DNA of 64,000 nt from Oceanithermus profundus DSM 14977. Lineage in GTDB: Bacteria; Deinococcota; Deinococci; Deinococcales; Marinithermaceae. Positions 16,136 to 34,304 of this stretch are shown here, in pieces. Positions within the stretch are counted from its first letter, which is position 1, and every line of letters begins with the position of its first letter. A model generated the notes under the pieces. The model was given only the letters and a program-made list of their open reading frames with translations, was not told where the DNA came from and made no database searches. The stretch spans positions 62,001 to 126,000 of the forward strand of contig NC_014753.1 in the NCBI RefSeq assembly GCF_000183745.1. Direction: 5' to 3'. A program made the translations under genes and the position numbers.

Positions 16136-17362
16136 CTAAGACTTCTTGCGCGTAAGCAAATCAAGTAGCTTGCGGGGAGGTGCAGGCGTTGGTTCGCTGT
16201 GGCCGACCACCTCCTCAAGCGCCGTGACCTGGCCGGTTAAAGTGGCCAGCACCGACTTAAGAGTCTCGAGCCATGCCTGTACTTCCTCGAGCTTTTGTCG
16301 CAGTTCGAGCTGCTCCGTTTCGAGGGCTTCCACCCCTAGCTTGAGCTCTTCTAACCCCGTGCGCAGCTTTTCTGTAGGCGGGGTTTGCGCGGCGCGCTTC
16401 TCGGCCTCGGCTACCCGACGCTCGAGCTGCGTGATCTGCTGCCGCTGAGCGGCCAGCTCTCTTTGCAGTCGTTCTACCGCCTGACCCGCCTGCGCTCCTT
16501 GTTTTACCGCCTGCTCGATCGCGGCGAGTCTCTGCTCGATGGCGGGAGCCATGTTCCCGGGTGTCGGAGTGCGAGACATGCCGCTGTGCATGCCCGCCAC
16601 CTTGGCCTCCAGAGCTTCGATTCGTTGCACCAGCCCTTCGGCGAATGGTGCGGGGGGGATGGGAGCGTGTCGTCTGGATGTGCCCATGTCCGGCTGGGGT
16701 TGCGGTGGGCGCTTCGGAGCCTCTGTGTTCTTCGCAGGACTGCGCTTGCTTCGGGCTTCAGCGGGCGGCGCCCCGGCGTTCTTCTTGGCCGGGTCGGCAG
16801 GCGGAGCTACACTCTCTTCCTTGCGCTCTGCTCGTGCGCCCCCCTCAGGCGCGGCTGACTCCCTGCGCCGCCTGGGTGAAACGAACCCTGAAGGGGAAGG
16901 TTCCGAAATCACCGAAACCGTCGGCGCATTGCCGTTTGCCCGTGGCTCGGGCGGCGCGACCTTCTTGATGGCGTCGTCGCCCGGCGGCTCAGGTGTGGGC
17001 CCTTCTGGGTTCTGAGCGCCGGGTTCCCGAGCTCCCTCCTCGTTCGCTTCGGCGTTATGTTGGTTCTGCAAAACCCCTCGGAGCTCTTCGATCTCCTCCG
17101 GGCCGTACACTTCTCCTTTGGTTTCCTCGAGCGCACGCAGCAACTTGGCGGGGTCCATCTCCACTGCCCCGAGCCGCGCGAGGGCGAGCATCACGTGCTC
17201 CCGGGCCCGCTCCGGCAGCAGTGTCTCTTCGCCGTCTTGCGGAAGGGGATAGTAGTGCTTGCTGTACAGCTCGATCAGGGCCGCAAACTGCCTGGCCTTG
17301 GTGCCGCTGAAGGGGTAGGCGACCCTACTTGCTGGCGTCAACTCCTCGTCAAAGGGCCACAT
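16136..17362 (-). CDS. Proline-rich, coiled-coil protein of the secretion operon
   Basis: 408 aa from MWPFDEELTPASRVAYPF (ATG at 17362, GGAGG 5 nt upstream). An N-terminal folded region (1-105) is followed by a Pro/Ala/Glu-rich linker (about 110-240) and long coiled coils (about 245-395, LVQRIEALEAKVAG..., LQRELAAQRQQITQLERRVAEAEKRAA). No signal peptide, so probably cytoplasmic. It overlaps the SpoIIIAA-like ATPase gene by 14 nt and is last in the secretion unit. Might be a scaffold or relaxosome component; no homology recognised. Confidence 0.8.
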   Translation of the reverse strand: MWPFDEELTPASRVAYPFSGTKARQFAALIELYSKHYYPLPQDGEETLLPERAREHVMLALARLGAVEMDPAKLLRALEETKGEVYGPEEIEELRGVLQNQHNAEANEEGAREPGAQNPEGPTPEPPGDDAIKKVAPPEPRANGNAPTVSVISEPSPSGFVSPRRRRESAAPEGGARAERKEESVAPPADPAKKNAGAPPAEARSKRSPAKNTEAPKRPPQPQPDMGTSRRHAPIPPAPFAEGLVQRIEALEAKVAGMHSGMSRTPTPGNMAPAIEQRLAAIEQAVKQGAQAGQAVERLQRELAAQRQQITQLERRVAEAEKRAAQTPPTEKLRTGLEELKLGVEALETEQLELRQKLEEVQAWLETLKSVLATLTGQVTALEEVVGHSEPTPAPPRKLLDLLTRKKS

Positions 17363-18386
17363 TCGCGCCTCCATCACCCTTAAGGGTCGGGCTCCGCAAA
17401 CCCTTCCGAACCGTCAAGCCTGCACCAGGCGGATAGTCGGGCTCCCCGTCGGCCCAGTGGCCGATGCGTTGCCCCTTGACCGGCTCACCCGCTAGCGCGC
17501 GATCGACTGCGTCGGCTAAGTCCGGTAACCAGTAGAACTTGCCCTTGGCCCGCACCTCGAGCAGCGACTGGAAAGCTGGGCGGGCAAGGCGCACACGACT
17601 GTTTAGATCGGGATGACCTAGCAGGGGGGAGTAGTGCGCATTCTCGATCACGTCGAAGATTCCGTACCCGTGGACCGTGGCGATGACCTGTACGCCGCGC
17701 CGGGCGGCGGCCTCCACTTCGGGCACGTCGCCGTGGTACCCCACCTCGTCAAGGATCAGCACGAGCGGGCCATGGTTGGCGATGGCCCGGCGAATCACCT
17801 CGGGTTGCTTTGCGGGGTTGGGCACCTGGTGCCAGCGTGCGTGACGAAGTTCGTGAATCGGGGTCTCGCCCACGCCGCCGATCTCGTTCGACGTGTCGAT
17901 GATGTTCAGGTGTGGTCCGATCGCGTCTGCGAAAGCGGCCGCCACTGCCCTGAGGAGTGTCGTTTTTCCCGACCCGGGCGCACCTACGATGAGGACGGAT
18001 CCTTTACTCCGAAGCAGCTCGAGCTTGAGCGATTCGGGAAGGGCGCCTGGGAAGTGGCGGGCTACGCGAACGGTGAAGCCCACGATGTTGTTCATGCGAT
18101 CGAAGATGGCGCTCACGCGGTGAGCCGTTCCGTCGATGCCGGCACGGCCGTCATCTTTGATCCCTGCGAACTGCTGAGCGATGCGTTGGATGTCTTCGCG
18201 CGCGGGGATCAGGTCTTCGTACTCAACGAACCGCCGTTCCCAATCGCCCCACGACACGGTTAGGGGGCGCCCAATTTGCAGCGTCGCCTCGGAAAGATCG
18301 GGATGCTCGCGGAACGGACGCCTGAACTTGGCGGGAAGGCGCTGGATGAGGGCTTCCAGGTCTTCGGGGAGCTTCTCGCGGTTCAT
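17349..18386 (-). CDS. SpoIIIAA/Ycf45-like secretion ATPase (VirB11 position)
   Basis: 345 aa. The RecA-like core has Walker A GAPGSGKTT (135-143), the family signature IIDTSNEIGG (about 163-172) and Walker B LILDEVGYHGD (about 211-221), then ARRGVQVIATVHGYGIFDVIENA. This order is that of SpoIIIAA, Ycf45 and R3H-linked ATPases, distant relatives of the hexameric VirB11/GspE family. Located among VirB-like genes, it probably supplies the VirB11 role (inference). Starts by ATGA overlap with the lytic transglycosylase stop. Confidence 0.85.
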   Translation of the reverse strand: MNREKLPEDLEALIQRLPAKFRRPFREHPDLSEATLQIGRPLTVSWGDWERRFVEYEDLIPAREDIQRIAQQFAGIKDDGRAGIDGTAHRVSAIFDRMNNIVGFTVRVARHFPGALPESLKLELLRSKGSVLIVGAPGSGKTTLLRAVAAAFADAIGPHLNIIDTSNEIGGVGETPIHELRHARWHQVPNPAKQPEVIRRAIANHGPLVLILDEVGYHGDVPEVEAAARRGVQVIATVHGYGIFDVIENAHYSPLLGHPDLNSRVRLARPAFQSLLEVRAKGKFYWLPDLADAVDRALAGEPVKGQRIGHWADGEPDYPPGAGLTVRKGLRSPTLKGDGGANVAL

Positions 18387-18841
18387 TTGGTTGCCACCAT
18401 GCGCCGTTTTTTCAGATGTTCATACACGTAAAGCACGTTGACCACGTACTGGCGGGTACTTCGAGGCGGCTCGTAGGCCCGCCCGGGCCCGGCGTTGTAG
18501 GCTGCGAGCGCCAACTCCCAGCGGCCAAACCGGCGGTACTGAATTGCCAGGTATCTTGCCGCCGTTTCGAGGTTAAGCCTGGGGTCCCAGAGTTTTTGCG
18601 GGTCGACCCCCAGGTCGCGCGCCGTGCTCGGCAGAACTTGGCCAAGCCCGATTTCGCCGTCCTTGCCACGTGCATTCGGGCAGTAGCGGCTCTCGACCCA
18701 GACCAGCGCCGCCAGCATGTCGGGGGGGAGGTCGTGGCGGGCCGCAGCTTCCGCGGTTAGCCGGTAGAGCTCGGCTGGAATGTAGCCACAGGCAAGACTG
18801 CTACCGGCAAGCACCGCAAGTGCGACAACGAGGGTGCGCAC
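18383..18841 (-). CDS. VirB1-like lytic transglycosylase (SLT fold)
   Basis: Opens peptidoglycan for assembly of the secretion channel; 152 aa from a GTG at 18841 (VRTLVVALAVLAGSSLACG), giving a signal peptide or lipobox-like LACG. The catalytic SLT domain is plain: LAALVWVESRYCPNARG with the catalytic Glu, then GEIGLGQVLPSTARDLGV, ETAARYLAIQYRRF, LALAAYNAGPGRAY. Two bases separate it from the upstream small membrane gene; the stop overlaps the ATPase start. Confidence 0.9.
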   Translation of the reverse strand: MRTLVVALAVLAGSSLACGYIPAELYRLTAEAAARHDLPPDMLAALVWVESRYCPNARGKDGEIGLGQVLPSTARDLGVDPQKLWDPRLNLETAARYLAIQYRRFGRWELALAAYNAGPGRAYEPPRSTRQYVVNVLYVYEHLKKRRMVATK

Positions 18842-18843
18842 GA

Positions 18844-19032
18844 TCAACCCCGTTCTTTCTCGAGCACGTCCCTCAGGTCCTCGAGCAGTAACACGGCTTC
18901 GCGAACCCAGTAGAGCACGCCGACGGAAACAAGGGCCAGTACGCCAACCGACCAGTTCAGCCAAATCAAGCTAACAGCGCCGCCAACGAAGCCCAGTATG
19001 AGCAATAGGGTGGTGAGGTGATAGGAAACCAT
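18844..19032 (-). CDS. 62-aa double-span membrane protein
   Basis: MVSYHLTTLLLILGFVGGAV and WSVGVLALVSVGVLYWVREAV form two adjacent hydrophobic helices, then a charged tail (LLEDLRDVLEKERG). Predicted leaderless: the ATG lies 6 nt after the -10. It heads the unit that contains the transglycosylase and the ATPase. Possible small secretion-channel subunit; no family recognised. Confidence 0.75.
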   Translation of the reverse strand: MVSYHLTTLLLILGFVGGAVSLIWLNWSVGVLALVSVGVLYWVREAVLLLEDLRDVLEKERG

Positions 19033-19038
19033 AGGGAC

Positions 19039-19067
19039 AATCTAGAAGCCCTTCCCGCGCGAATGGG
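19039..19067 (-). promoter_or_regulatory. CCCATT-type leaderless promoter (18844-19032 gene)
   Basis: CCCATT (19062-19067), 17 bp, TAGATT (19039-19044), 6 nt, ATG at 19032. Confidence 0.75.
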
Positions 19068-19070
19068 CGC

Positions 19071-19099
19071 AAAAAATGCGAGGGGGTTGCCCCCCTCGC
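19071..19099 (-). terminator. Intrinsic terminator of the 19118-20095 gene
   Basis: Minus strand: 9-bp stem GCGAGGGGG, GCAA (GNRA) tetraloop, stem, then ATTTTTTG. The U-run ends right at the GCGCCCATT of the next promoter. Confidence 0.88.
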
Positions 19100-19117
19100 T
19101 CCCGGGCCTTTCTTCGT

Positions 19118-20095
19118 TCAGGGCGCGTATGGAGGTGAGCGGTACAGGGCGTCCATGAATGGCCCGAGGATCTTGTTCCTGGACTCCTGCGTGTTCTTGA
19201 TGTAGCTGTACGTGCTTCGCTCAGGGTCGAAGACTCCTTCACTGATGAGGGGCGTTGAAACGGTGTAGATGCGGTACTCGACCTTGGGGACGATGCGCCA
19301 GGGAATTGGAATGGTGATCTTCTGGCCGGCTACGGTGATGGGGATGTTGATGTAGCTGACTTGGTGTTCGAGGCTGATCCGATCAAAGAAGAGAATCGGC
19401 GGCTCAGGAACTTCTCCCTTGACCACCGCAACGACAGGGAAGGGACTGTACTGCCCCATGAGATCCTGCGTCCACCGGGGGTCGCGTGTATCGATGTCGT
19501 GCTGCTGAACAAAGAGCGCAGGCATGAAGGGCGGAGGCGGCGACAAGGGCCATCCGTCTTCGGTGGTCAGGACCGCTACCCCGGGAACGAGCGGGTAGAA
19601 CTGCTCCGCATACTTGACGATGGGGAAGCGGGGTGAGCGGCTGTTACGCAGGAGGGCCGGGTGGAGCTTGCTCAAGTAGGCGGCGAATCGCGGATCCAGC
19701 TCCCCCGCCGAGACGTAGACGAACGAATATGCCTCGTCCAGCAGTCGCAGGAGCTCGAAAAGGCTTCGGAAGGTGGTCCCCTCCTCGGCGACGTCTTCCC
19801 GTAGCGATTCGAGCTCTTCGATCTTGGCCTCGAGCTCCGCGCTCAACTCTTCAGCTTGCGCGGTGAGCTCCTCGATTCGCTGAAGCTCGTCCTCGGTGAA
19901 CTCACCGTCTGCTCGGGCCTCCTCCACGAAGCGCTGAATGGTGTCCTCGAGCGCCTGAGCTCGTGCGGTAAGCACAACGATCTCGGACTGGAGCGCCTGG
20001 ATTTGAGCAAGCCGCTCTGCTTGGTCGTCCCCTTCAGCCCAGGCGAGACCAAATACTGCGGCTACGAGAAGAAGGAAGCGGAAAAAGGTCCTCAT
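19118..20095 (-). CDS. Secreted coiled-coil protein of the secretion operon
   Basis: 325 aa. Signal peptide MRTFFRFLLLVAAVFGLAWA, then a coiled coil (about 25-115, IEELTAQAEELSAELEAKIEELESLR) and a folded C-terminal region with many aromatic and proline residues (FMPALFVQQHDIDTRDPRW, IPIPWRIVPKVEYRIY). No family recognised. ATGA overlap with the gene before it; a strong terminator follows. A periplasmic channel component is the likely role, judged from position only. Confidence 0.8.
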   Translation of the reverse strand: MRTFFRFLLLVAAVFGLAWAEGDDQAERLAQIQALQSEIVVLTARAQALEDTIQRFVEEARADGEFTEDELQRIEELTAQAEELSAELEAKIEELESLREDVAEEGTTFRSLFELLRLLDEAYSFVYVSAGELDPRFAAYLSKLHPALLRNSRSPRFPIVKYAEQFYPLVPGVAVLTTEDGWPLSPPPPFMPALFVQQHDIDTRDPRWTQDLMGQYSPFPVVAVVKGEVPEPPILFFDRISLEHQVSYINIPITVAGQKITIPIPWRIVPKVEYRIYTVSTPLISEGVFDPERSTYSYIKNTQESRNKILGPFMDALYRSPPYAP

Positions 20096-20514
20096 TCGGA
20101 ACCTCCCAGGCCAAACTGTTTCAGGTACAGCTTGGCTAGCGCCCCTGATGGCGCTTCGACGAAGGCTTCGTATTCGTCGACATACGCGAAGACGCTTCCA
20201 TCCACGATCACCAAGGGCCCCGCGTATCCGCCCAGCAGAGCGGCTCCGCTGCGCTCGAGCCTTGCTAGGGCAGCGGAGTGATCATTGGTTAGCAAGTAAA
20301 CCTTTACCCCCTCGTAGCCAAGTTGCGCGAGAGCCTCGGCGGTTGCGTCGTCCAGATTCTCAACGGAGACCAAAACAATTTCCTGTGCATGCGATACTCG
20401 CTCGAGAACCTGGCCCCAATCGAAAGCGTTTAGCGGTGGCGGCTGCTGGGCCATGACCTGGGCAAAGGCGAGCGACATTAGCAATGCGAAAAACGTTTTC
20501 CGGCGGGCCTTCAT
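20092..20514 (-). CDS. Secreted degenerate PLD-like protein, half 1
   Basis: 140 aa. Signal peptide MKARRKTFFALLMSLAFAQVMAQ. The rest follows the phospholipase-D half-fold: a helix-strand start (VLERVSHAQEIVLVSVENL), then ALAQLGYEGVKVYLLTND, then RLERSGAALLGGYAGPLVIVDGSVFAY, where active PLDs have HxK...D before the VIVDG-like strand. No HxK is present, so it should be inactive. Coupled by ATGA overlap to the genes on both sides. Resemblance judged by eye. Confidence 0.6.
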   Translation of the reverse strand: MKARRKTFFALLMSLAFAQVMAQQPPPLNAFDWGQVLERVSHAQEIVLVSVENLDDATAEALAQLGYEGVKVYLLTNDHSAALARLERSGAALLGGYAGPLVIVDGSVFAYVDEYEAFVEAPSGALAKLYLKQFGLGGSE

Positions 20515-21053
20515 TGCTCCTTACCTCCATACATCGACTCGAAAACTGCCTCGAAGGCTTCCAGGGCCCTATCTGCGACCTCGTCTAGGGGGTTTCCTTC
20601 GGCGATCGTGTAGCCGGGCGGGGGTTGGGGAACGTATTCATAAGGCTGGGCCCGAAGGAACACCTGCGAAAACCATTTGGCGTGGCCATGTTCGCGCACT
20701 ACCCGTACCGAGCCCCCAGGCTTCCAGACGCCATCACCAACGAGCACGATCCCGCGGTGGATCAAGATGCTCGTCTTCATTCGCGGCGCCAGGCGCACGA
20801 TCAGCCCGGGCACTGTGCTGAGGTGGCGGGTGTAGGCATCAGGATCGAAGGCTGCTCGGGCGTCAAGAACCATCGAAACGATGACGCCCGAGTGGGCAGC
20901 CCGAGCAAGTGCGAGGGCTATCTCTTCGTCTTTTATGCTGGGCGCAGCCAAGAGCAAGACGTCGCCAGGCTGCGCGCGAGAAATTACCTCGAGGGGCGCA
21001 GGTTGTGCAAAAACAACCCCCAAGATTGTGATAAGGGCGATTAAAGCGCGGAT
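20511..21053 (-). CDS. Secreted degenerate PLD-like protein, half 2 (apparent ATC start)
   Basis: About 180 aa. PLD-like half-fold: VISRAQPGDVLLLAAPSIKDEEIALALARAAHSGVIVSMVLDA, then RMKTSILIHRGIVLVGDGVWKPGG at the HxK(x)4D site, where His is replaced by Arg, so a nuclease or lipase reaction is unlikely. A full signal peptide (RALIALITILGVVFAQ) appears only if translation begins at an ATC (21053), placed 5 nt after a perfect AAGGAGGTGG; no ATG or GTG exists in that frame. A TTG at 21023 would remove most of the signal. The 5' end overlaps the coupling-protein gene. Confidence 0.65.
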   Translation of the reverse strand: MRALIALITILGVVFAQPAPLEVISRAQPGDVLLLAAPSIKDEEIALALARAAHSGVIVSMVLDARAAFDPDAYTRHLSTVPGLIVRLAPRMKTSILIHRGIVLVGDGVWKPGGSVRVVREHGHAKWFSQVFLRAQPYEYVPQPPPGYTIAEGNPLDEVADRALEAFEAVFESMYGGKEQ

Positions 21054-23479
21054 ACTCCACCTCCTTCGTTGCGCGCGAACAGTTCACCGTAGCCCTGCTC
21101 CAGCGATTCGTCGCGCAGCATTCCGTAGGCGAGGCGACCCCTTGGCAGGGCACGCCACTCGTTGGGATTCGTAACCCCCAAGGCGAGGAGATCGGCCACG
21201 CGCTCTTCTCCCCACTTGGAGAGCGGGGTGCTGACGTGCACGAAGATCGAGCGTGAGGGTTCGTCGACGATGACGAGAGCCACACTTTGGGCGGCCACAC
21301 CTCGAGCCACCTTGCCCATCTCCTCGAGTTTTTTGAGCTGCCCGCGGATGGCGGCGTTTTCACGTAGCCGTCGCAGTAGGTCGTCTTCCAGAAGGGCCAG
21401 AGCGGCGCGCGTTAGCACCCAGCCGTCCCGATGCCTGGCCACCCAGCCGCGCTCCACCCACTCGTCGGACAAAGCCTCCCGGGTAAGCCCGAGTACGCGC
21501 ACCATGCCGATGTTGCCCTCGCGATCGCGCACAGCCTCGAGGGGCGCCGTGGCGTCGATAAGCTCCTTGACCCAGCCCAGGAAGCCGGTGATCGAGGCGT
21601 CCTGCTCGCTTCGTCCGTTCGCGTTCTCGTCGCCGCGCTCGCTGTAGTGGGCCTTCCACTCCCTGGCGTAAGCGAGGGCGTTTTGTTTGATGCTTGCCCA
21701 GTTCCGATGCAGAGGGTGGCGGGGATCGTCCAGCAGTACGGCTTGGTAGATCACGAAGGGCACGTAGTGCATCTTGGCCAGTACGGTACCTTGTTCGGCC
21801 CGCTGCATCTCCTCCCTGGAGTAGACCGGCTTCTTGCCCAGCCGCCTTGTTTGTTTGGCTTCCACCTCGTGCACGGGGGAGAGTTGGCGCATCAGGGCCT
21901 CCTCGACGATCACCTTGTCGCCCACCGCCTTCTCCAGGTCTTCGCGTGCCTTGTCGCCGAGACCGCCAACGTAGAAAATCTTGGTTCCGGTGTTGTTGCC
22001 CGTGAGCTCCTTGAGGCCCTCGGGGCCGTATATGGACTCGATGGCGGCCCGGTCTTGAATGATGATGTGGAAGGCGACGTTCATCGACCTGAACAGCGCG
22101 AGGCCTTCGGAAATATGAGGGAGCTCCCCGAAGTTCTGGAACTCGTCAAGTACGTAGTGCGTTAAATAGGGGAGCTCTCCGCCGTGGTTTTCCACGGCGG
22201 CCTGGTAGAGGCCGTCGTCGATCCAGATCTTGAGCAGGCGCATCAGCACCTTGTTCGAAACGCTCATCACCTTGGTCTTGGGAAGACCAATGTAGAGAAG
22301 CGAGGGCTTCTCGAAAATCGTTGTCAGGGACAGGTTTTCCCCCGGAGCCCCTCGAGAGGTGGCGCGGTCGACGTTGGGATCTTCGAGGAAGACCGCGATC
22401 TTCTTCCTCAAGGAGCGCATGTACTCGGGGACCCCCCGTATCTTGCTCTCTTCGCCAAAGATGACCCGCCCCCACTTCCATGGGTCGTTGGCTGGGCTGG
22501 TTGCGTACCGGCTTGCTTCTTGTAAGACGTCGGCGACCTGTTTGGGGTCTCCCGTGTTGAAGAGCTCCACGATCTCGCTCATGCGAGCGGCTCGGCCTTC
22601 GGCGCGAGCAATGAGCGCCACGGCGAGGGCCGCAACCGCGAACATCTCACGGTCGATGTCCCGGTAGAAGTCCACCGACTCCTCTTTGGCTGGCGCGATC
22701 AGCGCTTCCGCCAGCTTGGTGGCCGTCATGTAGTCCACCACCATGTCGAGCAGCGGTATGCGCGGGGTGTCGGGATCGTAAGGAGCGTAGGTGTACACCG
22801 GGCGTTCGAAGTGGCGAAAGATGGGCAGCACGTCGACCAGACCGCTTGGCTCTCCGTACTTCTGGTCCCAGGCGATCATTCCCTGGCGGTGGTGTGCTGC
22901 GCTGATCGCCAGCGACATGACGTAGGTCGAAGTCTTACCCTCGCCCGTCCCGGCTTCGACGAGCACGTGCCGCGCTAGTTCTTTTGGGGGGAGCTGCACG
23001 TACTTTTTGGGCCGCCCCTCGAGCAACCCCAGGAAAACGGCCCCATCGCTCAGCCGCCCTTCGCCCAGGTAGCCATGCTTCTTGAGGTCGTCCTCTTTGG
23101 CGAGGCCGCCTTCCGCCGGCAGTTCGGGTTTTCTCCCGGGCCAAAAGGCTACGGCGATGAACGACAAGGCGGCCGCCGCAGCAGATGCGAGCGGCCAGCG
23201 GTAATCCGGTGCATGGACGCTCTGGTAGTAGCGGTAGATCTCCATGCAGTTGGCCCCAGGGTGCTTCGCGTCCCACGCGTAGCAGCGCGACAGGAACGAA
23301 ATCGGGTTGTCGTAGCGGATCACCTTGTGCCAGCCCGAGTCGTAGGTCGCGCGCGTGGCCGCGATCACGCTGTTGGCGTAGCTTCGTGCGGCAAGAACCC
23401 CCGCCAGGACCATGAAGAACAGGCCGATTAGCAGCGGTATGTACAGGGGGCGGCCGAGGAGAGCTCGAGCGGGGTTCAC
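21041..23479 (-). CDS. virD4: VirD4/TraD-type coupling ATPase
   Basis: Hexameric pump that delivers the DNA-relaxase complex to the channel, 812 aa. Two N-terminal membrane helices (about 12-31 and 95-113) enclose a periplasmic loop with two cysteines. Walker A is EAGTGEGKTS (175-184), with E in the P-loop; Walker B is VLDEFQNFG (443-451). A long C-terminal region (about 600-812) contains a winged-helix-like part (LLGLTREALSDEWVERGWVARHRDGWVLTRAALALLEDD-type). GTG start overlapping the TrbL-like stop (GTGA). Confidence 0.9.
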   Translation of the reverse strand: MNPARALLGRPLYIPLLIGLFFMVLAGVLAARSYANSVIAATRATYDSGWHKVIRYDNPISFLSRCYAWDAKHPGANCMEIYRYYQSVHAPDYRWPLASAAAAALSFIAVAFWPGRKPELPAEGGLAKEDDLKKHGYLGEGRLSDGAVFLGLLEGRPKKYVQLPPKELARHVLVEAGTGEGKTSTYVMSLAISAAHHRQGMIAWDQKYGEPSGLVDVLPIFRHFERPVYTYAPYDPDTPRIPLLDMVVDYMTATKLAEALIAPAKEESVDFYRDIDREMFAVAALAVALIARAEGRAARMSEIVELFNTGDPKQVADVLQEASRYATSPANDPWKWGRVIFGEESKIRGVPEYMRSLRKKIAVFLEDPNVDRATSRGAPGENLSLTTIFEKPSLLYIGLPKTKVMSVSNKVLMRLLKIWIDDGLYQAAVENHGGELPYLTHYVLDEFQNFGELPHISEGLALFRSMNVAFHIIIQDRAAIESIYGPEGLKELTGNNTGTKIFYVGGLGDKAREDLEKAVGDKVIVEEALMRQLSPVHEVEAKQTRRLGKKPVYSREEMQRAEQGTVLAKMHYVPFVIYQAVLLDDPRHPLHRNWASIKQNALAYAREWKAHYSERGDENANGRSEQDASITGFLGWVKELIDATAPLEAVRDREGNIGMVRVLGLTREALSDEWVERGWVARHRDGWVLTRAALALLEDDLLRRLRENAAIRGQLKKLEEMGKVARGVAAQSVALVIVDEPSRSIFVHVSTPLSKWGEERVADLLALGVTNPNEWRALPRGRLAYGMLRDESLEQGYGELFARNEGGGVSAL

Positions 23480-24912
23480 GCCTTACCTCCCCGACCGGAG
23501 CCGGTTTCGTTGGTGTGTGGGCGTGGGTTGCGCACCAGTTCGGTCTCAGGCGTGACGGCCATTCCCGAACCCCCGCGCCCGGGGTTGGTGGGCTTTTGCC
23601 CGGTTGTTAAAGCAGGGGGCGCGCCTCCCTGGGGTAGCACCGGAGGCGTACTGGCGGGGGGCAACCGACCGCCCGGAGGCGGGGTGCTTCCACCTCCGCC
23701 CCCGTACATCCCACCACCAGGCGGTTCGGACGGGGGTTGCGGTTGGGTCGGGGCCCCCGTTTGCGGACCCGATCGCCCCATGCCGCCGCGAACCGCAGGC
23801 AGCAACCCGACGGCCGCCCGCCCAGCCAACACGGTTTCGAAAAGGCCCGTCGAAACAAGTACCTGGCCGATGACGGTGGGCACCGCAGTTGCGGCGATGC
23901 CCCCCACGATAAAGAGCATGAACAAGCCTCCCAGGATCAGAAGGGCGCTCCACAGGCTTATTGCGACCAGGGAAAAGGCGTCCTTCAGCCATTCGAGGAA
24001 GCCGCCGCCCCCCGTAGTGTCGGCCAGCTCCTTCCAGCGGTTGATGACTTCTTCGACGGGAACGCCGATGAAGATCTGTGCCGCCAGGCCCACAATCATG
24101 GGGACCAGGAGGGCGGTGGCAAGGGCCGAGATGGCCATGTTGAACCAGCGGGCCATGAAGAACGAGCCAGAGCGCGGCGAAAGGGCTAGCATAGCCAAGG
24201 CGATCGGCCACGCAAGTTTCAGGAGGATCACGGTCAGCCCCGTGGCCAGGCCCAAGACGTAGAACAACCAGAGCATGCCCATCAAAGGGATGCCCACCCA
24301 GTTGGCGTAGTTGAGGGCCTTGTCCATTCGGTTGCCAAGCGACTTACCCGAGGCCAGCTCTTTCTGGGTGGCGGCCTCGATCTCCTCGGGGGTCAATCGC
24401 CTGAGCAGGCGTTCGTGCAACTCTTGGCCGATCTTCGTGCTCGACCACCCCTGCTTGGCTGCCTGGGTGTTTACTTCTTCGTAGACCTCGGCGGTAATGC
24501 GCTTGATTGCCGCCTCACGAGCGGCCTGCTCGACCTTTAAAGCGGCCACCTTTACGGCTTGCGCACCTACGCCGCCGGCGATGAGGCCCATCGTCGAAAA
24601 ATAGGTGTTTCCCCGCTCGAGGATGTCGTCGAGGCTTTGCTTGGCCGCGTTATAGCCGGTTGAGTACGCAATGCTCCAGCCGGACAAAAGCAAGGTTCCA
24701 ACGTAGGGCGAGGCGAAGATGAGGCCGGCGATCGCGAAAGACCGGAAAAGGGCGGGGGCGATCAGGTCTGGGCGGCCGCGAAGCGGACCCATCGTTAGCG
24801 CCCAAAGCGCGGTGATGATGACGAGCCCGCCGATTATGGGGAAGAGCAGCGACTCCAGGGGGGAAACCAGGGAGCCGTTGAGCGTCGCAAGGAACTCGAG
24901 AGGGCTGCTCAT
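23476..24912 (-). CDS. VirB6/TrbL-like polytopic membrane protein
   Basis: 478 aa from MSSPLEFLATLNGSLVSP. About seven hydrophobic spans: residues 25-45, 60-85, near 210-250, 260-300 and 320-360. A Pro/Gly-rich disordered C-terminus follows (PSEPPGGGMYGGGGGSTPPPGG...). The early Ala-rich amphipathic region (about 105-190) and late paired helices resemble TrbL/VirB6, the inner-membrane channel part. The ATG overlaps the preceding stop (ATGA), so I prefer it to the GTG 21 nt upstream. Confidence 0.78.
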   Translation of the reverse strand: MSSPLEFLATLNGSLVSPLESLLFPIIGGLVIITALWALTMGPLRGRPDLIAPALFRSFAIAGLIFASPYVGTLLLSGWSIAYSTGYNAAKQSLDDILERGNTYFSTMGLIAGGVGAQAVKVAALKVEQAAREAAIKRITAEVYEEVNTQAAKQGWSSTKIGQELHERLLRRLTPEEIEAATQKELASGKSLGNRMDKALNYANWVGIPLMGMLWLFYVLGLATGLTVILLKLAWPIALAMLALSPRSGSFFMARWFNMAISALATALLVPMIVGLAAQIFIGVPVEEVINRWKELADTTGGGGFLEWLKDAFSLVAISLWSALLILGGLFMLFIVGGIAATAVPTVIGQVLVSTGLFETVLAGRAAVGLLPAVRGGMGRSGPQTGAPTQPQPPSEPPGGGMYGGGGGSTPPPGGRLPPASTPPVLPQGGAPPALTTGQKPTNPGRGGSGMAVTPETELVRNPRPHTNETGSGRGGKA

Positions 24913-28828: not shown

Positions 28829-29141
28829 AGACGATCAAGGGATGATGGTGCTCATCGGGGCGGTGGGCGTAGTGATCTGCCTGGGTGCTGACCCAGTCCA
28901 GGTAGTAGGAGGCGTTTGGGCCCGGCAGGGCGCGCTTCACGGCCTGCCAGAGCATGTATCCGAGGATGGTGCCTCCAATGAAGCCCAGGGCGGAACCTGC
29001 CCCGCCAAGAACGAGCCGGGCCACCTGGGCCATCACGCCCGCAAAGGAGAAGATGACCATGATGTCCGCGTACGTGATGGCAAGAGGGCCGGGCAGGTAA
29101 CCCGGCTGGTCGATCCGGAAGGTCTTTCCGCGCAGCTCCAT
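28818..29141 (-). CDS. VirB3/TrbD-like membrane protein
   Basis: 107 aa. Two hydrophobic segments (about 22-46 ITYADIMVIFSFAGVMAQVARL and 48-70 AGSALGFIGGTILGYMLWQAV) and a hydrophilic C-terminus rich in His (HRPDEHHHPL). Size, topology and location between pilin and VirB4 are as in VirB3/TrbD. The start overlaps the pilin stop as TAATG. Confidence 0.75.
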   Translation of the reverse strand: MELRGKTFRIDQPGYLPGPLAITYADIMVIFSFAGVMAQVARLVLGGAGSALGFIGGTILGYMLWQAVKRALPGPNASYYLDWVSTQADHYAHRPDEHHHPLIVYGD

Positions 29142-29503
29142 TAGGGGCTAATCGTGGGGGGGCCACCCACCAGGGCCTCGAGGAACGGAAGCCCGACGCT
29201 GTAGCCAATGATTGCAACAAGTGCGCCGCCCGCCCACATCCACCAGTTCTTGTGCCCTGCGGCCTTCATCGACAGGCCCCAAAGCAGGGCGCCCAGGGCG
29301 GCGGCGTAGAAGATGACCTTGAAGACCGTCGTAGCGAACCACAGCGTGGTGTCTGCGGTTTCCCGCCCGATGTTGCGCACGGTTCCCAGGACGTTGCGGA
29401 AGTTGTCTTCGGTGGTCTGAGCCAGCGCAGGCGCCGCAACCACCAGGGCGAGAACGGCCAAAAGTGCGATGGTCATGGGTGTGGGTTGCAGTAACCGTTT
29501 CAT
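29141..29503 (-). CDS. VirB2/TrbC-like pilin precursor
   Basis: 120 aa from MKRLLQPTPMTIALLAVLAL. Signal sequence ends near ALAQ, and the mature part (TTEDNFRNVLGTVRNIGRETADTTLW) has two hydrophobic helices (FKVIFYAAALGALLWGLSM, WWMWAGGALVAIIGYSVGLPF), the VirB2/TrbC pilin layout. The start is fixed by the promoter: the ATG at 29503 is 9 nt after the -10; an in-frame start 45 nt upstream would lie inside the promoter. Confidence 0.82.
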   Translation of the reverse strand: MKRLLQPTPMTIALLAVLALVVAAPALAQTTEDNFRNVLGTVRNIGRETADTTLWFATTVFKVIFYAAALGALLWGLSMKAAGHKNWWMWAGGALVAIIGYSVGLPFLEALVGGPPTISP

Positions 29504-29538: not shown

Positions 29539-29541
29539 GGG
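29513..29541 (-). promoter_or_regulatory. CCCATT-type promoter of the virB2-B3-B4-like unit
   Basis: CCCATT (29536-29541), 17 bp, TATATT (29513-29518), 9 nt to the ATG. Confidence 0.75.
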
Positions 29542-29549
29542 CGCACAAA

Positions 29550-30143
29550 ATGTTGAGTGACGAAGAGCGGCTCGAACCAACTCACGAACGCCTGCTCCCC
29601 ACACCCCGGGGGGCGTTGGTGCTGCTGTACCTAGACCGCATCGGGCCGCTTCACCAAGGCGACATAGAGCATCTTCCCGGCGGGCTCGAGGGGATGCTCC
29701 AGCGCGTAGACGCTCCCGTAGGCCCGCTTTTCGTTCTCGGAGTCGAGGGCCGGCGCTACCTTGGCTACAAGAATCCCTGGAAGCCGTTGAGCATGCGCTA
29801 CGTCACCCGGCGCTTTGCAACCCGCCGTTTGATCGAGGAGCTGAGACGAGAGCGTCCCCTCGTCTACAAAGAGCGCTTTCGCGGCTCGGTCCTGTTGCGC
29901 GATGTGGTCAGCGGCGAACGCTTACTCGTGGCTGGCTATCCCATGCCGCCATCCAAACCTACTCTGCTCGAGCTGTTTCGCAAGGGCCGTGAATTGGGGG
30001 CCAGGGTCACGGTTGCCTTCGACCGCCCTCGCGGGGGGCGCCCCTTCAACCTCGTGCGCCAGGGAGCCGTCGAGTTCAGGCGCTTGCGCGAACTCCCGGA
30101 GCTGCCCGCTATGACCCTCGAGCTCGTCACGGCTCGACCGTGA
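29550..30143 (+). CDS. Putative winged-helix protein, replication-relaxation-like N-domain
   Basis: 197 aa from MLSDEERLEPTHERLLP. The first part reads as a winged helix (RGALVLLYLDRIGPLHQGDIEHLPGGLEGMLQRVDA... PLFVLGVEGRRYLGY), followed by a basic region (RYVTRRFATRRLIEELRRERP) and a C-terminal alpha/beta part. Its 3' end overlaps that of the convergent 30127-30615 gene by 17 bp. In Replic_Relax proteins a winged helix is joined to the nuclease-like domain found in that neighbour. Assignment is tentative. Confidence 0.6.
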   Translation: MLSDEERLEPTHERLLPTPRGALVLLYLDRIGPLHQGDIEHLPGGLEGMLQRVDAPVGPLFVLGVEGRRYLGYKNPWKPLSMRYVTRRFATRRLIEELRRERPLVYKERFRGSVLLRDVVSGERLLVAGYPMPPSKPTLLELFRKGRELGARVTVAFDRPRGGRPFNLVRQGAVEFRRLRELPELPAMTLELVTARP

Positions 30144-30615
30144 TGGTCGGCGGCCGCTTGAGTCCGAGCTCGCGTGCCAGGCGCTGCACGTAGCCAATCC
30201 TTGCAGGCCGGAGCACCCCCCATATCTGTCCGTCGTAGGCGAGATCGTAGTGCTTGAGCTTGGCCGTCACACGGTCACGCGGGTAGCGTCCGGCGTCGAA
30301 CTCCACGGCGATTCGCCCGCGTTTGCTGTTCCATACGGCATCCGGCTCAAGGCCGGTGTGGTCTGTTCGGGTCGCGTTCGCCGCCCGCCATGCTGTTGCC
30401 GGCACCTCGAGAATCCGCCGCATCTCGCCCACCATGGCGGCGTGCATGACCAGACCGTCGTCCGCGTCGGCAAGCTCGGGCGAGAGGAAGACCGGCACCT
30501 CGAGGCCGTAGACGTGCAAGACGCGATCTGGCTCGGGGAGTGCCCCCGAGACCCAGCGGCGCGCCTGGTTCAGGGTCAAGGCCCCGTCGCTTTTCAGAAG
30601 ATCAGCGAGCGCCAT
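30127..30615 (-). CDS. Replic_Relax-like (PD-(D/E)XK-like) protein
   Basis: 162 aa from MALADLLKSDGALTLNQARRW. The core GLEPDAVWNSKRGRIAVEFDAGRYPRDRVTAKLKHYDL matches the PDxxW...xxEvDxxxxxxxxxKLxxY layout of replication-relaxation proteins (PF13814), plasmid factors thought to act at origins or as relaxase accessories. The usual N-terminal winged helix is very short here. No HUH relaxase (HxH...Y) is seen in the window, so this is the best candidate for the DNA-processing partner of the secretion system (inference). It overlaps the VirB10-like gene by 14 nt. Confidence 0.65.
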   Translation of the reverse strand: MALADLLKSDGALTLNQARRWVSGALPEPDRVLHVYGLEVPVFLSPELADADDGLVMHAAMVGEMRRILEVPATAWRAANATRTDHTGLEPDAVWNSKRGRIAVEFDAGRYPRDRVTAKLKHYDLAYDGQIWGVLRPARIGYVQRLARELGLKRPPTITVEP

Positions 30616-32182
30616 CGACGGGCTGAGGCGACTGACGTACAAGGATTCGCACCGGCTCCCCACTTTTGATCACGAAGATGCGCGAAATTGCCTTCTCTTC
30701 GATGGGCAGGTCGAACACTTCCGCAAGCCGCTTGGCCACTACCCATTCGATTTCTGCTGGCTGAGTTTCTTCGACGCGGTTTCCCTCGGGGTCCACGTAC
30801 ACCTTGGTGGCGCTCTGTACGCCCTTGACGTACTCTGCCACCCCCCCGAGAGCTGCTCGCAGGGTAGAACTCGCGAGGGCGGGCGAAACCTCCTTCGCTT
30901 CGACTTTGACCCCGTACACCCGGTCGGTGCTGAGTACGCTGGCCTTGGTTCGGTAAAGGCGGCCGTTCTCGACAACTTCGTCGAGCACGATCATCGCGCG
31001 ACCGCTCGCCCCTGCGAGTTTCGCCACACCAAGCCAGACCCGGCCATCCTTGTCGCGCACGCTGACTGGGGCTTCGGGGAGGCCGGTGGCCAGCACGGGC
31101 GCGGCTTCGATCTTTCCCTCGAGGAGGGTGCCGGGCGTCAGTGGACTCGTGGCCCGGGCAAGGTTGCGAGATGGGGTGGGGCTCGAGGGAACAGCGGGGA
31201 CCGAGAGGCGGCGGTCTGCGGTCGGCCCCGAGGCGCGCGGGGCAGGTGACATCCTGGCGGAGCTGGAAGCCGATGCCAGGGCGACACGTGAGGCACTTCC
31301 CTCCGGCGTTTGCTCCATGGCCATTCCCCCGGTCAGCTTTGTCTGGCTAGCCATTCCGGTCCCCCCGAGGGCCGGGCTGCTGCCGCCCATGCCCCCGGAA
31401 AGCGCCTGGGCCTTTCCGGCGCCTCCCGCAGCCGAGCGCCCCGTCACGGCTACGCCCCCGCTGAGTGCGGCTGATGCGCCGGAGCCGCCACCCGTGAGGG
31501 CGAGGCGAGCACCCCCACCTCCCGCTAGCGGCGCAACGCTTGCGGCGACGCCGGGCCCTTGCTCCGCCCCGTCGACGCCGTCGAGTCCGTAGGCGTAAAA
31601 GTCGCCTGCGGGGTCCTCGTAGCCGCCTTTCGCGCCAAAGCTGGGCGTTGGCACGGTAGGCTCAAGCGGCTCGTCTTGAATGGGCTGAGGTTCAGGTTCG
31701 CTTTGGGGTTGCTCAACCTGCCCGAGGTTCACTTCCGGCTGCGCGCCTTCGCTCGGCCTGGCTGCGGGCTCCTGGGTTTCCACCGGAGGCGGCGCGGATC
31801 GCGCAGGGCGCGCTACGGAAGGCGGGCGGAAGCTGTTCCACATGAGGAATCCGATCAGGAGAACGGTGCCAGCGCTGATGAGCATGAAGTGCTTGGCGCG
31901 CGATGGGTGCCGGCGACCCTGTTCGTCCCGTTCGCTCGTGAGTCCCCCCTTGAGCTGGTTTACCTTTTCGGTCACCTCCGCCTGCTTGGCGAACTCCTCT
32001 GAGGGCACGGCCCCAACGACCGTGGCGTAAAGCTCGCGCTGCAAATCCTTGTGGCCGCCTTCGCCTAGATCGTTAATCAGGGCCGATAGCTGGGTGGGCG
32101 TAAGTCTATCGGGTACCGTTCGCTGCAAGGCGTCGCTGAGGCGGCGCCGGAGTTCTTCGGGGATTTGTCTCTCGGCTGCCAT
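30602..32182 (-). CDS. VirB10/TrbI-like channel scaffold
   Basis: 526 aa from MAAERQIPEELRRRL. Cytoplasmic N-terminus (1-95), one membrane helix (about 98-116, FMLISAGTVLLIGFLMW), a Pro-rich then Gly/Ala/Ser-rich periplasmic linker (about 120-345), and the TrbI/VirB10 domain (about 350-526): LTPGTLLEGKIEAAPVLATGLPEAPVSVRDKDGRVWLGVAKLAG.. and a late SGEPVRILV strand. It spans both membranes in the family. The Gly/Ala/Ser linker, with repeats such as LTGG and LSGG, is unusually long. Start overlaps the preceding stop as TAATG. Confidence 0.85.
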   Translation of the reverse strand: MAAERQIPEELRRRLSDALQRTVPDRLTPTQLSALINDLGEGGHKDLQRELYATVVGAVPSEEFAKQAEVTEKVNQLKGGLTSERDEQGRRHPSRAKHFMLISAGTVLLIGFLMWNSFRPPSVARPARSAPPPVETQEPAARPSEGAQPEVNLGQVEQPQSEPEPQPIQDEPLEPTVPTPSFGAKGGYEDPAGDFYAYGLDGVDGAEQGPGVAASVAPLAGGGGARLALTGGGSGASAALSGGVAVTGRSAAGGAGKAQALSGGMGGSSPALGGTGMASQTKLTGGMAMEQTPEGSASRVALASASSSARMSPAPRASGPTADRRLSVPAVPSSPTPSRNLARATSPLTPGTLLEGKIEAAPVLATGLPEAPVSVRDKDGRVWLGVAKLAGASGRAMIVLDEVVENGRLYRTKASVLSTDRVYGVKVEAKEVSPALASSTLRAALGGVAEYVKGVQSATKVYVDPEGNRVEETQPAEIEWVVAKRLAEVFDLPIEEKAISRIFVIKSGEPVRILVRQSPQPVDGAR

Positions 32183-33390
32183 TAGTAGAGGGGGTCTCCT
32201 TTGATACCCGGGATGGGCCACCCTTCAGGGACGGCCTCCCAGCCGGTGTGCGCACGGGGGGCGACGTGGACGATGGGCAGGGGGATTGGGATGGGTACCG
32301 GTACGGGTGGGGTGGTCGGGGTGAGGCAGGCCACGAAGAAGGTGGGCGTATGCGGGGAAACCTCGGTGTCGGTCTTGGTGTACACCCGCATCATCGGCAC
32401 CACGCCGTAGGCCTGGTACTCCTCGGGAAGAGCTGCCCCGGTTACTCCTTCGGGGACGGGTCCCCCGTTCTTTCCCGCCCAATACTGGGGCTTGCCTTCG
32501 GGGAAGATGTCGCCGCGGGTGGTGATCGTTCGCTTGAGGGCCTCGAGCTGGGCAAGACCCGGGCCGTCTTCGCTGCGCTCGTCGTCGGGCAGGTTGCGCA
32601 GCACCTTGCGCAGTTCCCTGGGGATCCCCGGAAGGGCCTGGTTGATGTAGGCGGCACCGCGGAGGTCGGCGTCCTGAGCCTTCTCGGCCAGTTCCGCCCA
32701 CTGCTCGAGGCTGCCCGCATCGAGGTTGATGACCGGGGCGATCGCCGACCCGCTACCCGGGAACAAGCCGTTTTCCCACTGAAGCGCCAGGGGGGCATGG
32801 CGAGCCAGGGCTGCGCCAACGTCAGCGTAGTAATCCACCAGATAGTTGGTGTACCCGTGAAGAATCGCTTCGGTGTAGCGCTGAAGCAGATCTTCCCAGT
32901 CCAGGTAGAAGCTCGGGCAGACCATCGGATACCACATGACGGGGGCGCTTGGGAGATCGCCGTCGCAATACTCTTCGGTGGGTAGTTCCTTCGCCGTGCC
33001 GTCCCAGGCGCCCAGGTACTCGTCTTGGGGCGCGGACTGGCACTTGAGCGCCGTGCCGTAAATAGCCGCGTCTACCCGATGGGCGACCCGCGCGTCGTAC
33101 CTCGCCCAGGCTTCGGATAGGGCGCGCTCGAGCTTCTCGGCCTCGCCTTCGGGTACGTACGGTATGGGGTACTCAAACTTGCAGTCGCTGGGGAAGCCCT
33201 GGTCCCGGCAAGCGGTGTACTCGCTCAGGTCTACGACCTCGATGTGGGGGAGGCTGGCGCGGGGGTCTTCGGCGTCGGTGTCGAACTCGAGGCTGTCCCC
33301 GATGTAGGAGACCAAGCCTACGGGCGCGTCGCTGTCTTCGGCTGCTGCGAGCACACCGAGGAGGACCAGGATGAAGAACCACGCGCGCAT
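32182..33390 (-). CDS. Secreted cysteine-containing protein of the secretion operon
   Basis: 402 aa. Signal peptide MRAWFFILVLLGVLAAA; six or so cysteines (YTACRDQGFPSDCKFEYP, ALKCQSAP, EEYCDGD, PMVCPSF, VACLTP) suggest disulfides. Ends in a Pro-rich PVPVPIPIPLPIVHV segment. The cysteine-rich periplasmic character and position between VirB9- and VirB10-like genes recall TraU/TraN-like accessory proteins, but no clear similarity is seen. GAGG lies before the ATG; 8 nt after the VirB9-like stop. Confidence 0.75.
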   Translation of the reverse strand: MRAWFFILVLLGVLAAAEDSDAPVGLVSYIGDSLEFDTDAEDPRASLPHIEVVDLSEYTACRDQGFPSDCKFEYPIPYVPEGEAEKLERALSEAWARYDARVAHRVDAAIYGTALKCQSAPQDEYLGAWDGTAKELPTEEYCDGDLPSAPVMWYPMVCPSFYLDWEDLLQRYTEAILHGYTNYLVDYYADVGAALARHAPLALQWENGLFPGSGSAIAPVINLDAGSLEQWAELAEKAQDADLRGAAYINQALPGIPRELRKVLRNLPDDERSEDGPGLAQLEALKRTITTRGDIFPEGKPQYWAGKNGGPVPEGVTGAALPEEYQAYGVVPMMRVYTKTDTEVSPHTPTFFVACLTPTTPPVPVPIPIPLPIVHVAPRAHTGWEAVPEGWPIPGIKGDPLY

Positions 33391-33398
33391 GGTGCCTC

Positions 33399-34304
33399 CT
33401 AGAGCGCCCCGACGGTGATCTTGCGCGCCGGGCTGAGCTTGTCCGTGGGCCAGAACTCGAGGGCTACCCGGTAAATGACGCCGCTTCCTTCGTCCCGGAC
33501 ATTGAAGAAGACTTCAAGCGGCCCGGCCTTGGCATCCATGATCTGCACGGTCATGGTCAGGGCGCGGGTGGGGGGGACGACGTCTTCGGGGGGCGTGCGG
33601 ATGAGGAGGTACTCGAGCAAGTTGCCATTCTGGCGCACCTCGAGCTCACCAGGGTCGATGACGAGGTTGGCGACCCCGGTATTCGCGATGGATAGGAAAG
33701 CTGCCACTTGACCCGGAGCCACGAGACGGGCGCTGCCTTCGACCTTGGCCCCGGCGAAGGCGATCTGCCCGCCCTCGTTGGCCTCGGCCACCTTCCGGAC
33801 GGCTATCTGCGGTGTTTCGGTGCTGGTGGCGGCAGGCTTGGTTGGCGCAGTGTAGCTGGGCGTCGACGATGCCCGCGGCTGCGTGGGGGCGGTGACCGAC
33901 ACGGGCGCAGTAGGTCTGCGATAGGGCAGATGCTCTTTGATGATGTACTCCCGCGGCTGCCCTTCGGCCACGACCTCCACGATGAACTCGAGGGACTGGC
34001 CGTTGACGAGCACGTGCAGGTCGGTACGTCCGGCCCGCTGGAGCGGCCAGATGACGAAAACGTTGTCCTGGGCCTTGATCTTGAGCAGCGGCTCGTCGCC
34101 CAGGTAGTAGTCCTCGATCCTCCCCGGGAAGCGCAACACCGTGGTGAAGTGCGGGCTCACCTCGATGATGCCCGCGGTGCTGGTGAGCTCGGGGGCGTAG
34201 TAGACGGTGGTGGTGCGCGGGCCGGTAGGAGCCGCGGCCTGTGCGAGGGCGCTCAGGCCGATGGCAACGAGAAAAATCAGTGTTCGCATGGGTCGCATCC
34301 TCAT
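33399..34304 (-). CDS. VirB9/TrbG-like outer-membrane channel protein
   Basis: 301 aa from MRMRPMRTLIFLVAIGL (or MRTLIF...), with a signal peptide to about residue 25. The N-terminal beta domain has the VirB9/TrbG look: TAGIIEVSPHFTTVLRFPGRIEDYYLGDEP, IKAQDNVFVIWPLQRAGRTDLHVLVNGQSLEFIVEVV. A Pro/Thr linker (130-165) leads to a second beta domain (about 175-301). With VirB10 it forms the outer-membrane core. Start set by the promoter, 9 nt after the -10. Confidence 0.78.
   Translation of the reverse strand: MRMRPMRTLIFLVAIGLSALAQAAAPTGPRTTTVYYAPELTSTAGIIEVSPHFTTVLRFPGRIEDYYLGDEPLLKIKAQDNVFVIWPLQRAGRTDLHVLVNGQSLEFIVEVVAEGQPREYIIKEHLPYRRPTAPVSVTAPTQPRASSTPSYTAPTKPAATSTETPQIAVRKVAEANEGGQIAFAGAKVEGSARLVAPGQVAAFLSIANTGVANLVIDPGELEVRQNGNLLEYLLIRTPPEDVVPPTRALTMTVQIMDAKAGPLEVFFNVRDEGSGVIYRVALEFWPTDKLSPARKITVGAL

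Follow-up and report, generated by a model that had tools for sequence, protein, structure and literature searches.

The window analysed here, 64,000 bp in length, covers positions 62001-126000 of a contig 135,351 bp long, which agrees in size with the Oceanithermus profundus plasmid pOCEPR01 (PMC3111992), in a two-contig genome of 2,439,291 bp. Between about 34.3 and 16.1 kb of the window lies a single colinear cluster of minus-strand genes, each with an open reading frame, that encodes a real and conserved variant of the conjugative type IV secretion system (T4SS). With gene calls made by a simple codon model, the first half of the minus-strand order reads VirB9-like protein, secreted protein, VirB10-like protein, PF13814 protein, VirB2-like protein, VirB3-like protein, VirB4 and, where VirB5 would be expected, a secreted coiled-coil protein. 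The order continues with a VirB6-like protein, VirD4, two small PLD-like proteins, a secreted coiled-coil protein, a 62-residue membrane protein, VirB1, a SpoIIIAA-type ATPase and a coiled-coil protein. VirB4 and VirD4 thus stand together in one locus, as in conjugative systems, and relatives of ParA and ParB are encoded on the same contig. The genes on which our argument turns are the following:

17349..18386, minus strand: third ATPase of the SpoIIIAA/Ycf45 type, 345 amino acids, no R3H domain, assigned from PF19568, motifs and AlphaFold2 fold
18383..18847, minus strand: VirB1-type lytic transglycosylase (SLT, PF01464, 81.9 bits)
21041..23479, minus strand: VirD4-type coupling protein, 812 amino acids, N-terminal transmembrane segments (PF02534, 64.0 bits; PF12696, 47.6 bits)
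26165..28828, minus strand: VirB4-type ATPase, 887 amino acids (TraG P-loop, PF19044, 70.7 bits)
30127..30642, minus strand: PF13814 (Replic_Relax, MOBC-type) protein, candidate relaxase, 171 amino acids (27.3 bits, above the cut-off of 25.3)

The assignments of VirB4, VirD4, VirB1 and the SpoIIIAA-type ATPase are secure. An initial annotation, made from the letters of this DNA, had recognized equivalents of VirB1 to VirB6, VirB9, VirB10 and VirD4; profiles bear this out for VirB4, VirD4 and VirB1, whereas VirB2, B3, B5, B6, B9 and B10 are weaker than it stated and are suggested by gene order, membrane topology and hydrophobic segments, with weak or no family matches. VirB4 itself scores 104.7 bits with TIGR02746 (TraC-F-type; cut-off 567) and 76.1 bits with TIGR00929, also below cut-off. 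The VirB4 family PF03135 found no match in the O. profundus genome even though VirB4 is present, indicating that this model is too narrow.

The third ATPase

The ATPase matches Spore_III_AA (PF19568) at 40.8 bits, above the cut-off of 27, whereas T2SSE (PF00437) reaches 16.1 bits against a cut-off of 24.9; its score with the SpoIIIAA equivalog TIGR02858 is 67.1 bits, below the cut-off of 281.3. The protein carries the motifs GAPGSGKTT, DTSNEIGG, ILDEVG and TVHG, and Walker A, the Asp box SNEI, the DE pair and the His are invariant across 29 aligned rows. SpoIIIAA models match all 29 of these relatives (E<=0.01), while the VirB11 model TIGR02788 weakly matches two (best E 0.0044) and leaves the window protein unmatched. 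In profile alignments (hhalign), SpoIIIAA aligns with a probability of 99.6% (E 1e-23) over 255 columns that include the N-terminal domain, compared to 56.6% for R388 VirB11, whose alignment is confined to 122 columns within the P-loop domain. No C-terminal R3H domain was matched among the families listed for the ATPase. A search of PDB sequences with its profile returned unrelated P-loop proteins in the top rows, and PilT, FlaI and GspE at E 1e-4 or weaker.

The AlphaFold2 model of the protein (predicted local distance difference test, pLDDT, 82.9; confidence low from residue 313 to the end) has the two-domain architecture of a secretion ATPase, in which the N-terminal and RecA-like domains, Walker A/B and the Asp and His boxes of the VirB11/secretion-ATPase fold are all predicted. 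Fold comparison places it nearest PilT (Z 18.4, 276 residues), followed by DotB (16.9, 277) and Helicobacter pylori VirB11 HP0525 (16.4, 256), each comparison covering most of the chain. Since the fold is of the PilT/DotB/VirB11 kind and the profiles favour SpoIIIAA, the ATPase is a member of the wider secretion-ATPase kind on its SpoIIIAA/Ycf45 branch, and is not a VirB11. The initial annotation had called it SpoIIIAA-like instead of canonical VirB11, and this call is sustained.

Among 80 loci from species genomes, the closest relatives of the ATPase belong to Chloroflexota, Cyanobacteria, Melainabacteria and others and are 32-40% identical over nearly the whole length. In a tree of the family, a single branch with a Shimodaira-Hasegawa-like approximate likelihood-ratio (SH-aLRT) support of 100 separates the T4SS-linked set from all others; this is a quick, unrooted tree with long branches and no outgroup, four near-copies (L045, L050, L053 and L054) were left out of it, and its T4SS label includes Deinococcus taeanensis and D. 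gobiensis P3, for which no VirB4 is annotated within 15 kb. Scans of viral contigs yielded eight ATPase relatives, none with detectable T4SS genes. A T4SS contig labelled as a Hydrogenophilus metagenome-assembled genome (L077) carries an ATPase at near-zero distance from that of Thermus and is probably a misbinned stray contig.

Across 111 Deinococcota genomes, VirB4 was found in 26, and the SpoIIIAA-type ATPase (E<=1e-30) in 23 of these 26 but in none of the 85 lacking VirB4, two of which hold short ATPase remnants (~1e-16). In 20 of the 23 genomes the ATPase and VirB4 lie on one contig and one strand, 3.2-10.1 kb apart, with the ATPase downstream in 19 and upstream in one (G072); in the remaining three the two genes are divided between draft contigs. 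Of 23 plasmid records with the ATPase, 18 recur in the list of 60 VirB4 matches, and conversely all 18 Deinococcota records in that list carry the ATPase. The five that do not recur are those of D. taeanensis and D. gobiensis P3, the R3H protein of a Scytonema, a genuine SpoIIIAA from Pusillibacter and a fragment from Meiothermus. The gene order proposed as a check by the initial annotation is consistent in other plasmids and in integrated copies, some of them inside chromosome-size contigs of relatives. As its spread over plasmid records demonstrates, the system spans Thermus, Allomeiothermus, Deinococcus and others; the suggestion that it is Thermales-specific is therefore unsupported, because Deinococcus plasmids carry it too. 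Megablast of the locus against plasmids gave no match, and this VirB4 was found in none of five further Oceanithermus genomes searched.

VirB11 itself is absent from these loci. A PF00437 search of 25 VirB4-bearing genomes placed every match above 100 bits either off the VirB4 contig or at a distance from VirB4 exceeding 20 kb, and at the T4SS loci PF00437 touches the SpoIIIAA-type gene alone, at 17-25 bits. The proposal that a SpoIIIAA-type ATPase stands in a divergent T4SS where VirB11 would be is thus borne out at the level of gene content, and the genomic evidence lends good support to the view that this ATPase would perform VirB11's job.

Two other accounts of the ATPase have to be weighed. 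It is possible, although unlikely, that the protein is an accessory of the locus, engaged for example in nucleic-acid handling, regulation or pilus retraction, roles to which its Ycf45 and PilT relatives point, and that VirB4 and VirD4 suffice as they do in Gram-positives, whose T4SSs are universally without VirB11 according to a recent review (PMC12857230). PilT being its best fold match is in keeping with such a role, as is the position of the gene, 7 kb from VirB4 and beside VirB1, where R388 instead has its VirB11 beside VirB10. Against this stand the near-fixed linkage to VirB4, the strict conservation of the catalytic motifs, the lack of a matched R3H domain and the hosts themselves, which are diderm, where VirB11 is usual.

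An ordinary system related to mating-pair formation type T (MPF_T), in which VirB11 has drifted until it scores best with SpoIIIAA and nothing has been replaced, is improbable in our assessment. MOB-suite does type five relatives (pTA69, pTTJL1802, pMESIL02, pDEIPR02 and D. gobiensis P2) as MPF_T, SpoIIIAA and VirB11 are secretion ATPases of one fold, and three relatives barely exceed the T2SSE cut-off, with neighbours in frame. A drifted VirB11 would, however, be hard to square with the 29-to-2 division of the profile matches, with an alignment to SpoIIIAA that runs the whole length where VirB11 aligns over 122 columns, or with the 32-40% identity to Ycf45-type proteins in other phyla.

Whether the system merits a class of its own is a separate question. 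A tree of VirB4, built from 13 loci chosen from 30 together with eight plasmids and the window, splits the 22 Deinococcota proteins from eight others with an SH-aLRT of 99, on long branches and with only one MPF_T row. The VirB8 and VirB11 profiles that define MPF_T find no counterpart here, with the qualification that control genomes also fell below the VirB8 cut-off. The tree suggests a separate T4SS class, as the initial annotation had ventured, but does not prove it, and MOB-suite calls several relatives MPF_T. The fuller proposal, of a distinct Deinococcota mating-pair-formation class whose VirB11 role passed to a SpoIIIAA/Ycf45-type ATPase and whose relaxase is a MOBC nuclease in reduced form, is tentative, and we would rate its chances at somewhat less than even.

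A candidate relaxase upstream of VirB4

Relaxases of the HUH kind appear to be missing: PF03432, PF08751 and PF03389 have no matches in the O. profundus genome (other HUH models, such as Mob_Pre, were not run genome-wide), and the MOBF and MobA/MobL families each score in 0 of 25 VirB4-bearing genomes. Among the large proteins scanned elsewhere on the plasmid, a subset of all such proteins, there was no known relaxase. The initial annotation had recognized no relaxase, which holds for the HUH kind, but it missed the PF13814 protein at 30127-30642. It had further reasoned that standard homologues on the replicon, such as VirB11 or a MOB relaxase, would make this an ordinary system; a non-HUH MOB candidate is indeed present, whereas no VirB11 is found at the locus.

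PF13814 is a domain of MobC relaxases (PMC5357655), and the MOBC family is described as related to PD-(D/E)xK nucleases (PMC12857230). In a 33-row alignment, several rows of which come from near-identical loci, PD101, E114xD116, a Tyr and K128 are kept in all or nearly all sequences. A PF13814-like gene is found in 22 of the 26 VirB4-positive genomes and in none of the 85 others, many of these relatives scoring under the PF13814 cut-off. In 21 of the 22 it shares the VirB4 contig and is always upstream, by 0.9-3.0 kb (23 VirB4 copies measured); in the other (G025) it is on a separate contig. A first survey covered 23 selected VirB4-negative genomes, and a later one, of all 111 genomes, misses G044 and G054, which the first had found. 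One genome holds a second copy (G049:C28:12575-13063) on a contig without a VirB4 match, and no PF13814-like protein was found in viral contigs. The genomic association gives good support to the identification of this protein as the putative relaxase.

In all three plasmid records from Embleya and Streptomyces, one of which was found via VirB4, the VirB4 and VirD4 genes are followed by one for a PF13814-type protein, and alignment of the PF13814-like family with the Embleya protein lines up the ExD..K stretch at a probability of 8% (E 0.004). Two Deinococcus copies (L034:44891-46195 and L073:16815-18128) carry a 250-residue N-terminal extension that, among the sequences compared, is common only to these two. 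The plus-strand gene at 29550-30143 resembles by eye the long form of D. ficus and was considered as a detached N-terminal portion of the relaxase, an idea that was abandoned since phmmer gave it no support.

Alternatively, the relaxase could be a plasmid tyrosine recombinase, as with TcpM of pCW3 (MOBM; PMC12857230), leaving the PF13814 protein as a nuclease or DNA-binding helper. The plasmid does encode proteins matching PF00589 at 37.8 and 113.9 bits, with relatives on pTA69, pMESIL02 and p115k, and the gene named relaxase in the pTA69 paper, pTA69-45, corresponds by gene order to the tyrosine recombinase/integrase TO73_RS11915 (PMC4605624). These genes nevertheless lie far from the T4SS locus, such enzymes are common for dimer resolution and integration, and the gene tied to VirB4 is the PF13814 one, so that we regard this alternative, too, as improbable. 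Export of proteins or cell contact rather than DNA transfer, which several secreted proteins of unassigned role at the locus might suggest, is very improbable given a plasmid with ParA/ParB relatives, a VirD4 and relaxase-type gene, and recurrence on relatives' plasmids and within chromosome-size contigs.

Taken together, we favour, with a probability of roughly 60%, the reading that the locus encodes the machinery with which a conjugative plasmid is transferred and represents a Deinococcota T4SS lineage with a SpoIIIAA/Ycf45-type ATPase in the VirB11 position and a MOBC-type nicking protein. The small PD-(D/E)xK-like PF13814 protein, encoded just upstream of VirB4, would nick the DNA at the origin of transfer, and VirD4 would receive the nicked plasmid strand. 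VirB4 would power assembly and transfer, and the third ATPase, presumably a hexamer docked on VirB4, would sit at the cytoplasmic base in the place held elsewhere by VirB11. The cargo would include DNA and not only protein.

Several observations weigh against this reading. Three VirB4-positive genomes (G003, G093 and G096) have no clear ATPase, a further ATPase/VirB4 pair on G024 contig C8 is 72 kb apart on opposite strands, and the ATPases of the D. taeanensis and D. gobiensis P3 plasmids lack an annotated VirB4 within 15 kb. No T4SS gene was detected near 78 of the 80 SpoIIIAA-like loci from species genomes, with VirB4 present at the other two, so family membership alone implies no T4SS role. 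The PF13814 match covers profile positions 107-174, the C-terminal half only, with no match to the N-terminal winged-helix half, and the structure model of the protein, computed from the lone sequence, has a pLDDT of 39.5 that leaves its fold unconfirmed. PF03432 matches occur in G003 and G041, on contigs other than that of VirB4; both genomes are without a PF13814-like gene, and a relaxase swap is possible in these two cases, which come from draft contigs. Finally, alignment of the VirB10, VirB9 and VirB5 candidates to their R388 counterparts gave no match, leaving VirB9 and VirB10 unconfirmed.

Three hexameric ATPases are taken as standard for most Gram-negative T4SSs (PMC12857230). A lineage that pairs VirB4 and VirD4 with a third motor of the SpoIIIAA type would mean that a family other than VirB11 is able to occupy the VirB11 slot, and would make the Deinococcota lineage a tractable system for studying the third motor's role. 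The activity of SpoIIIAA could not be reconstituted (PMC2703783), and our finding ties this spore channel ATPase to a thermostable relative; if the proposed class is real, ATPases of sporulation channels and of DNA transfer would be branches of one family bridging secretion machines. Furthermore, 21 of the 23 plasmid records with the ATPase, 20 of the 21 being Deinococcota, are listed as non-mobilizable. Many of them would then be conjugative and self-transmissible, and gene flow in Thermus and Deinococcus would have to be viewed differently.

Other genes of the locus and plasmid

The remaining genes of the locus are as follows:

16136..17377, minus strand: coiled-coil protein, no family, following the ATPase and overlapping its end (coiled-coil matches below cut-offs)
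18844..19032, minus strand: 62-residue membrane protein with two hydrophobic segments
19118..20095, minus strand: secreted protein with N-terminal coiled coil, no family (sub-cut-off matches only, mostly coiled-coil)
20092..20514, minus strand: small secreted protein, very weakly PLD-like (PLDc_2, 13.3 bits)
20511..21023, minus strand: small, possibly PLD-like protein, degenerate (PLDc_2, 17.9 bits; cut-off 27)
23476..24918, minus strand: putative VirB6-like polytopic membrane protein, 7 predicted transmembrane segments
24909..26102, minus strand: secreted coiled-coil protein, VirB5 candidate by position (N-terminal hydrophobic segment, by eye)
28818..29141, minus strand: putative VirB3-like membrane protein, 107 amino acids, two transmembrane segments, immediately preceding VirB4 (no credible family match)
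29141..29476, minus strand: putative VirB2-like pilin, three hydrophobic segments including an N-terminal one (TrbC, 15.5 bits only)
30602..32182, minus strand: putative VirB10-like protein, Pro-rich, one transmembrane segment near residue 96, C-terminal domain kept in 5 relatives
32182..33390, minus strand: secreted protein, no family (unmatched in Pfam and NCBIfam; pMESIL02 and Deinococcus p115k encode distant relatives, 23% identity)
33399..34289, minus strand: possible VirB9-like secreted protein (TIGR02781, 18.2 bits, E 0.0015; 3 Thermus counterparts)

The proteins at 19118, 32182 and 16136 had been described as without a known family, and none has a Pfam match over cut-off. Counterparts of the VirB2-like protein in four relatives are annotated TrbC/VirB2, those in the VirB5 position align at 18-23% in seven plasmids between VirB4 and VirB6, and the VirB6-like protein partially matches a 1517-residue D. 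ficus protein in the equivalent place. PDB sequence searches with the VirB10-like, VirB9-like and PF13814-like profiles returned nothing credible. VirB8, reported as unrecognizable by the initial annotation, likewise escaped our search, with PF04335 over cut-off in 0 of 25 VirB4-bearing genomes; the control genomes also gave 0, so that the sensitivity of this search is unproven.

Beyond the locus, the plasmid carries a set of genes of the type IV pilus kind, at window 34636-54681 and plasmid 60687-61796 (L041), comprising prepilin-like genes, T2SSF (141 bits), a secretin (116 bits) and two ATPases, one PilB-type (412 bits) and one PilT-type. T2SSE genes also occur on the VirB4 contig of the closest T4SS relative (G039:C9), of pMESIL02 (G022:C3) and of G024:C8. 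Thin pili of IncI plasmids serve mating, and by analogy this pilus set may do the same. An SlpA-like protein with SLH and SlpA_C domains is encoded at window 1805-4078, and on pTA69, pTTJL1802 and NEB1569 an SLH protein immediately follows the ATPase, perhaps as an envelope anchor of the apparatus. Two 145-residue genes at window 10891-11328 and 11837-12274, with equal start and coding score, are apparently a recent duplication. The protein encoded at window 55755-56570 contains an NrS-1 polymerase helix-bundle domain (92.5 bits), and that at 58903-59664 is of the Rad52/Rad22 type (31.3 bits). Elsewhere on the plasmid are type I-E CRISPR effector genes (Cse1, Cse2, CT1975, Cas5 and CRISPR_assoc; plasmid 92-4416, L038) and genes for ribonucleotide reductase and a ThyX-type thymidylate synthase (plasmid 16542-19325 and 22280-23377; L038, L039).

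Comparison with known systems

A literature search joining SpoIIIAA, VirB11 and type IV secretion found no paper, and the portion of the 2025 T4SS nomenclature review available to us makes no mention of Thermus, Deinococc, SpoIIIAA or Ycf45 (PMC12857230). The closest described counterpart is a published Thermus conjugation system, that of the T. aquaticus plasmid pTA69 (PMC4605624). Its gene order is the same from VirB2 to VirD4 and onward as far as the ATPase (43% identical), and it differs in that its VirB10-like/PF13814 pair points the opposite way. That paper names pTA69-34 virB11 and pTA69-45 relaxase. By gene order, pTA69-34 is a 770-residue protein with a sub-cut-off AAA match only, while the SpoIIIAA-type and PF13814-type genes correspond to pTA69-11 and pTA69-24, neither of which is in the paper's T4SS list. 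Our numbering counts genes and fits the landmarks (13 VirB1, 16 VirD4, 20 VirB4, 22 VirB2, 41 nuclease, 42 methylase and 46 peptidase); because number 33 is missing from the pTA69 record, numbers above 32 depend on that fit.

The window shares VirB4, VirD4, VirB1 and the order VirB2-B3-B4-B5-B6 with the VirB/VirD4 T4SS of R388 (MPF_T), but has no VirB11-family gene, no detectable VirB8 and no HUH relaxase, and places its third ATPase differently. The closest named family of that ATPase is SpoIIIAA of the SpoIIIA-SpoIIQ channel; no spore channel gene was recognized at the locus, and the score is far under the SpoIIIAA equivalog cut-off. The chromosomal Ycf45/R3H ATPases of Cyanobacteria, Chloroflexota and Melainabacteria are similar in sequence but differ in their R3H domain, in the lack of a detected T4SS gene near 78 of 80 loci and in their place across the SH-aLRT 100 split. 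SpoIIIAA itself is regarded as a type II/IV secretion-type ATPase (PMC2703783). The MOBC relaxases TraX of pAD1 and MobC of CloDF13 share the PF13814 domain and PD..ExD..K residues with the window protein (PMC12857230, PMC5357655), which at only 171 residues leaves the N-terminal half of the profile unmatched. Transjugation in T. thermophilus (TdtA, ICETh1) likewise donates DNA in Thermus, and is described as a separate DNA secretion ATPase and element (PMC5365140, PMC7767461).

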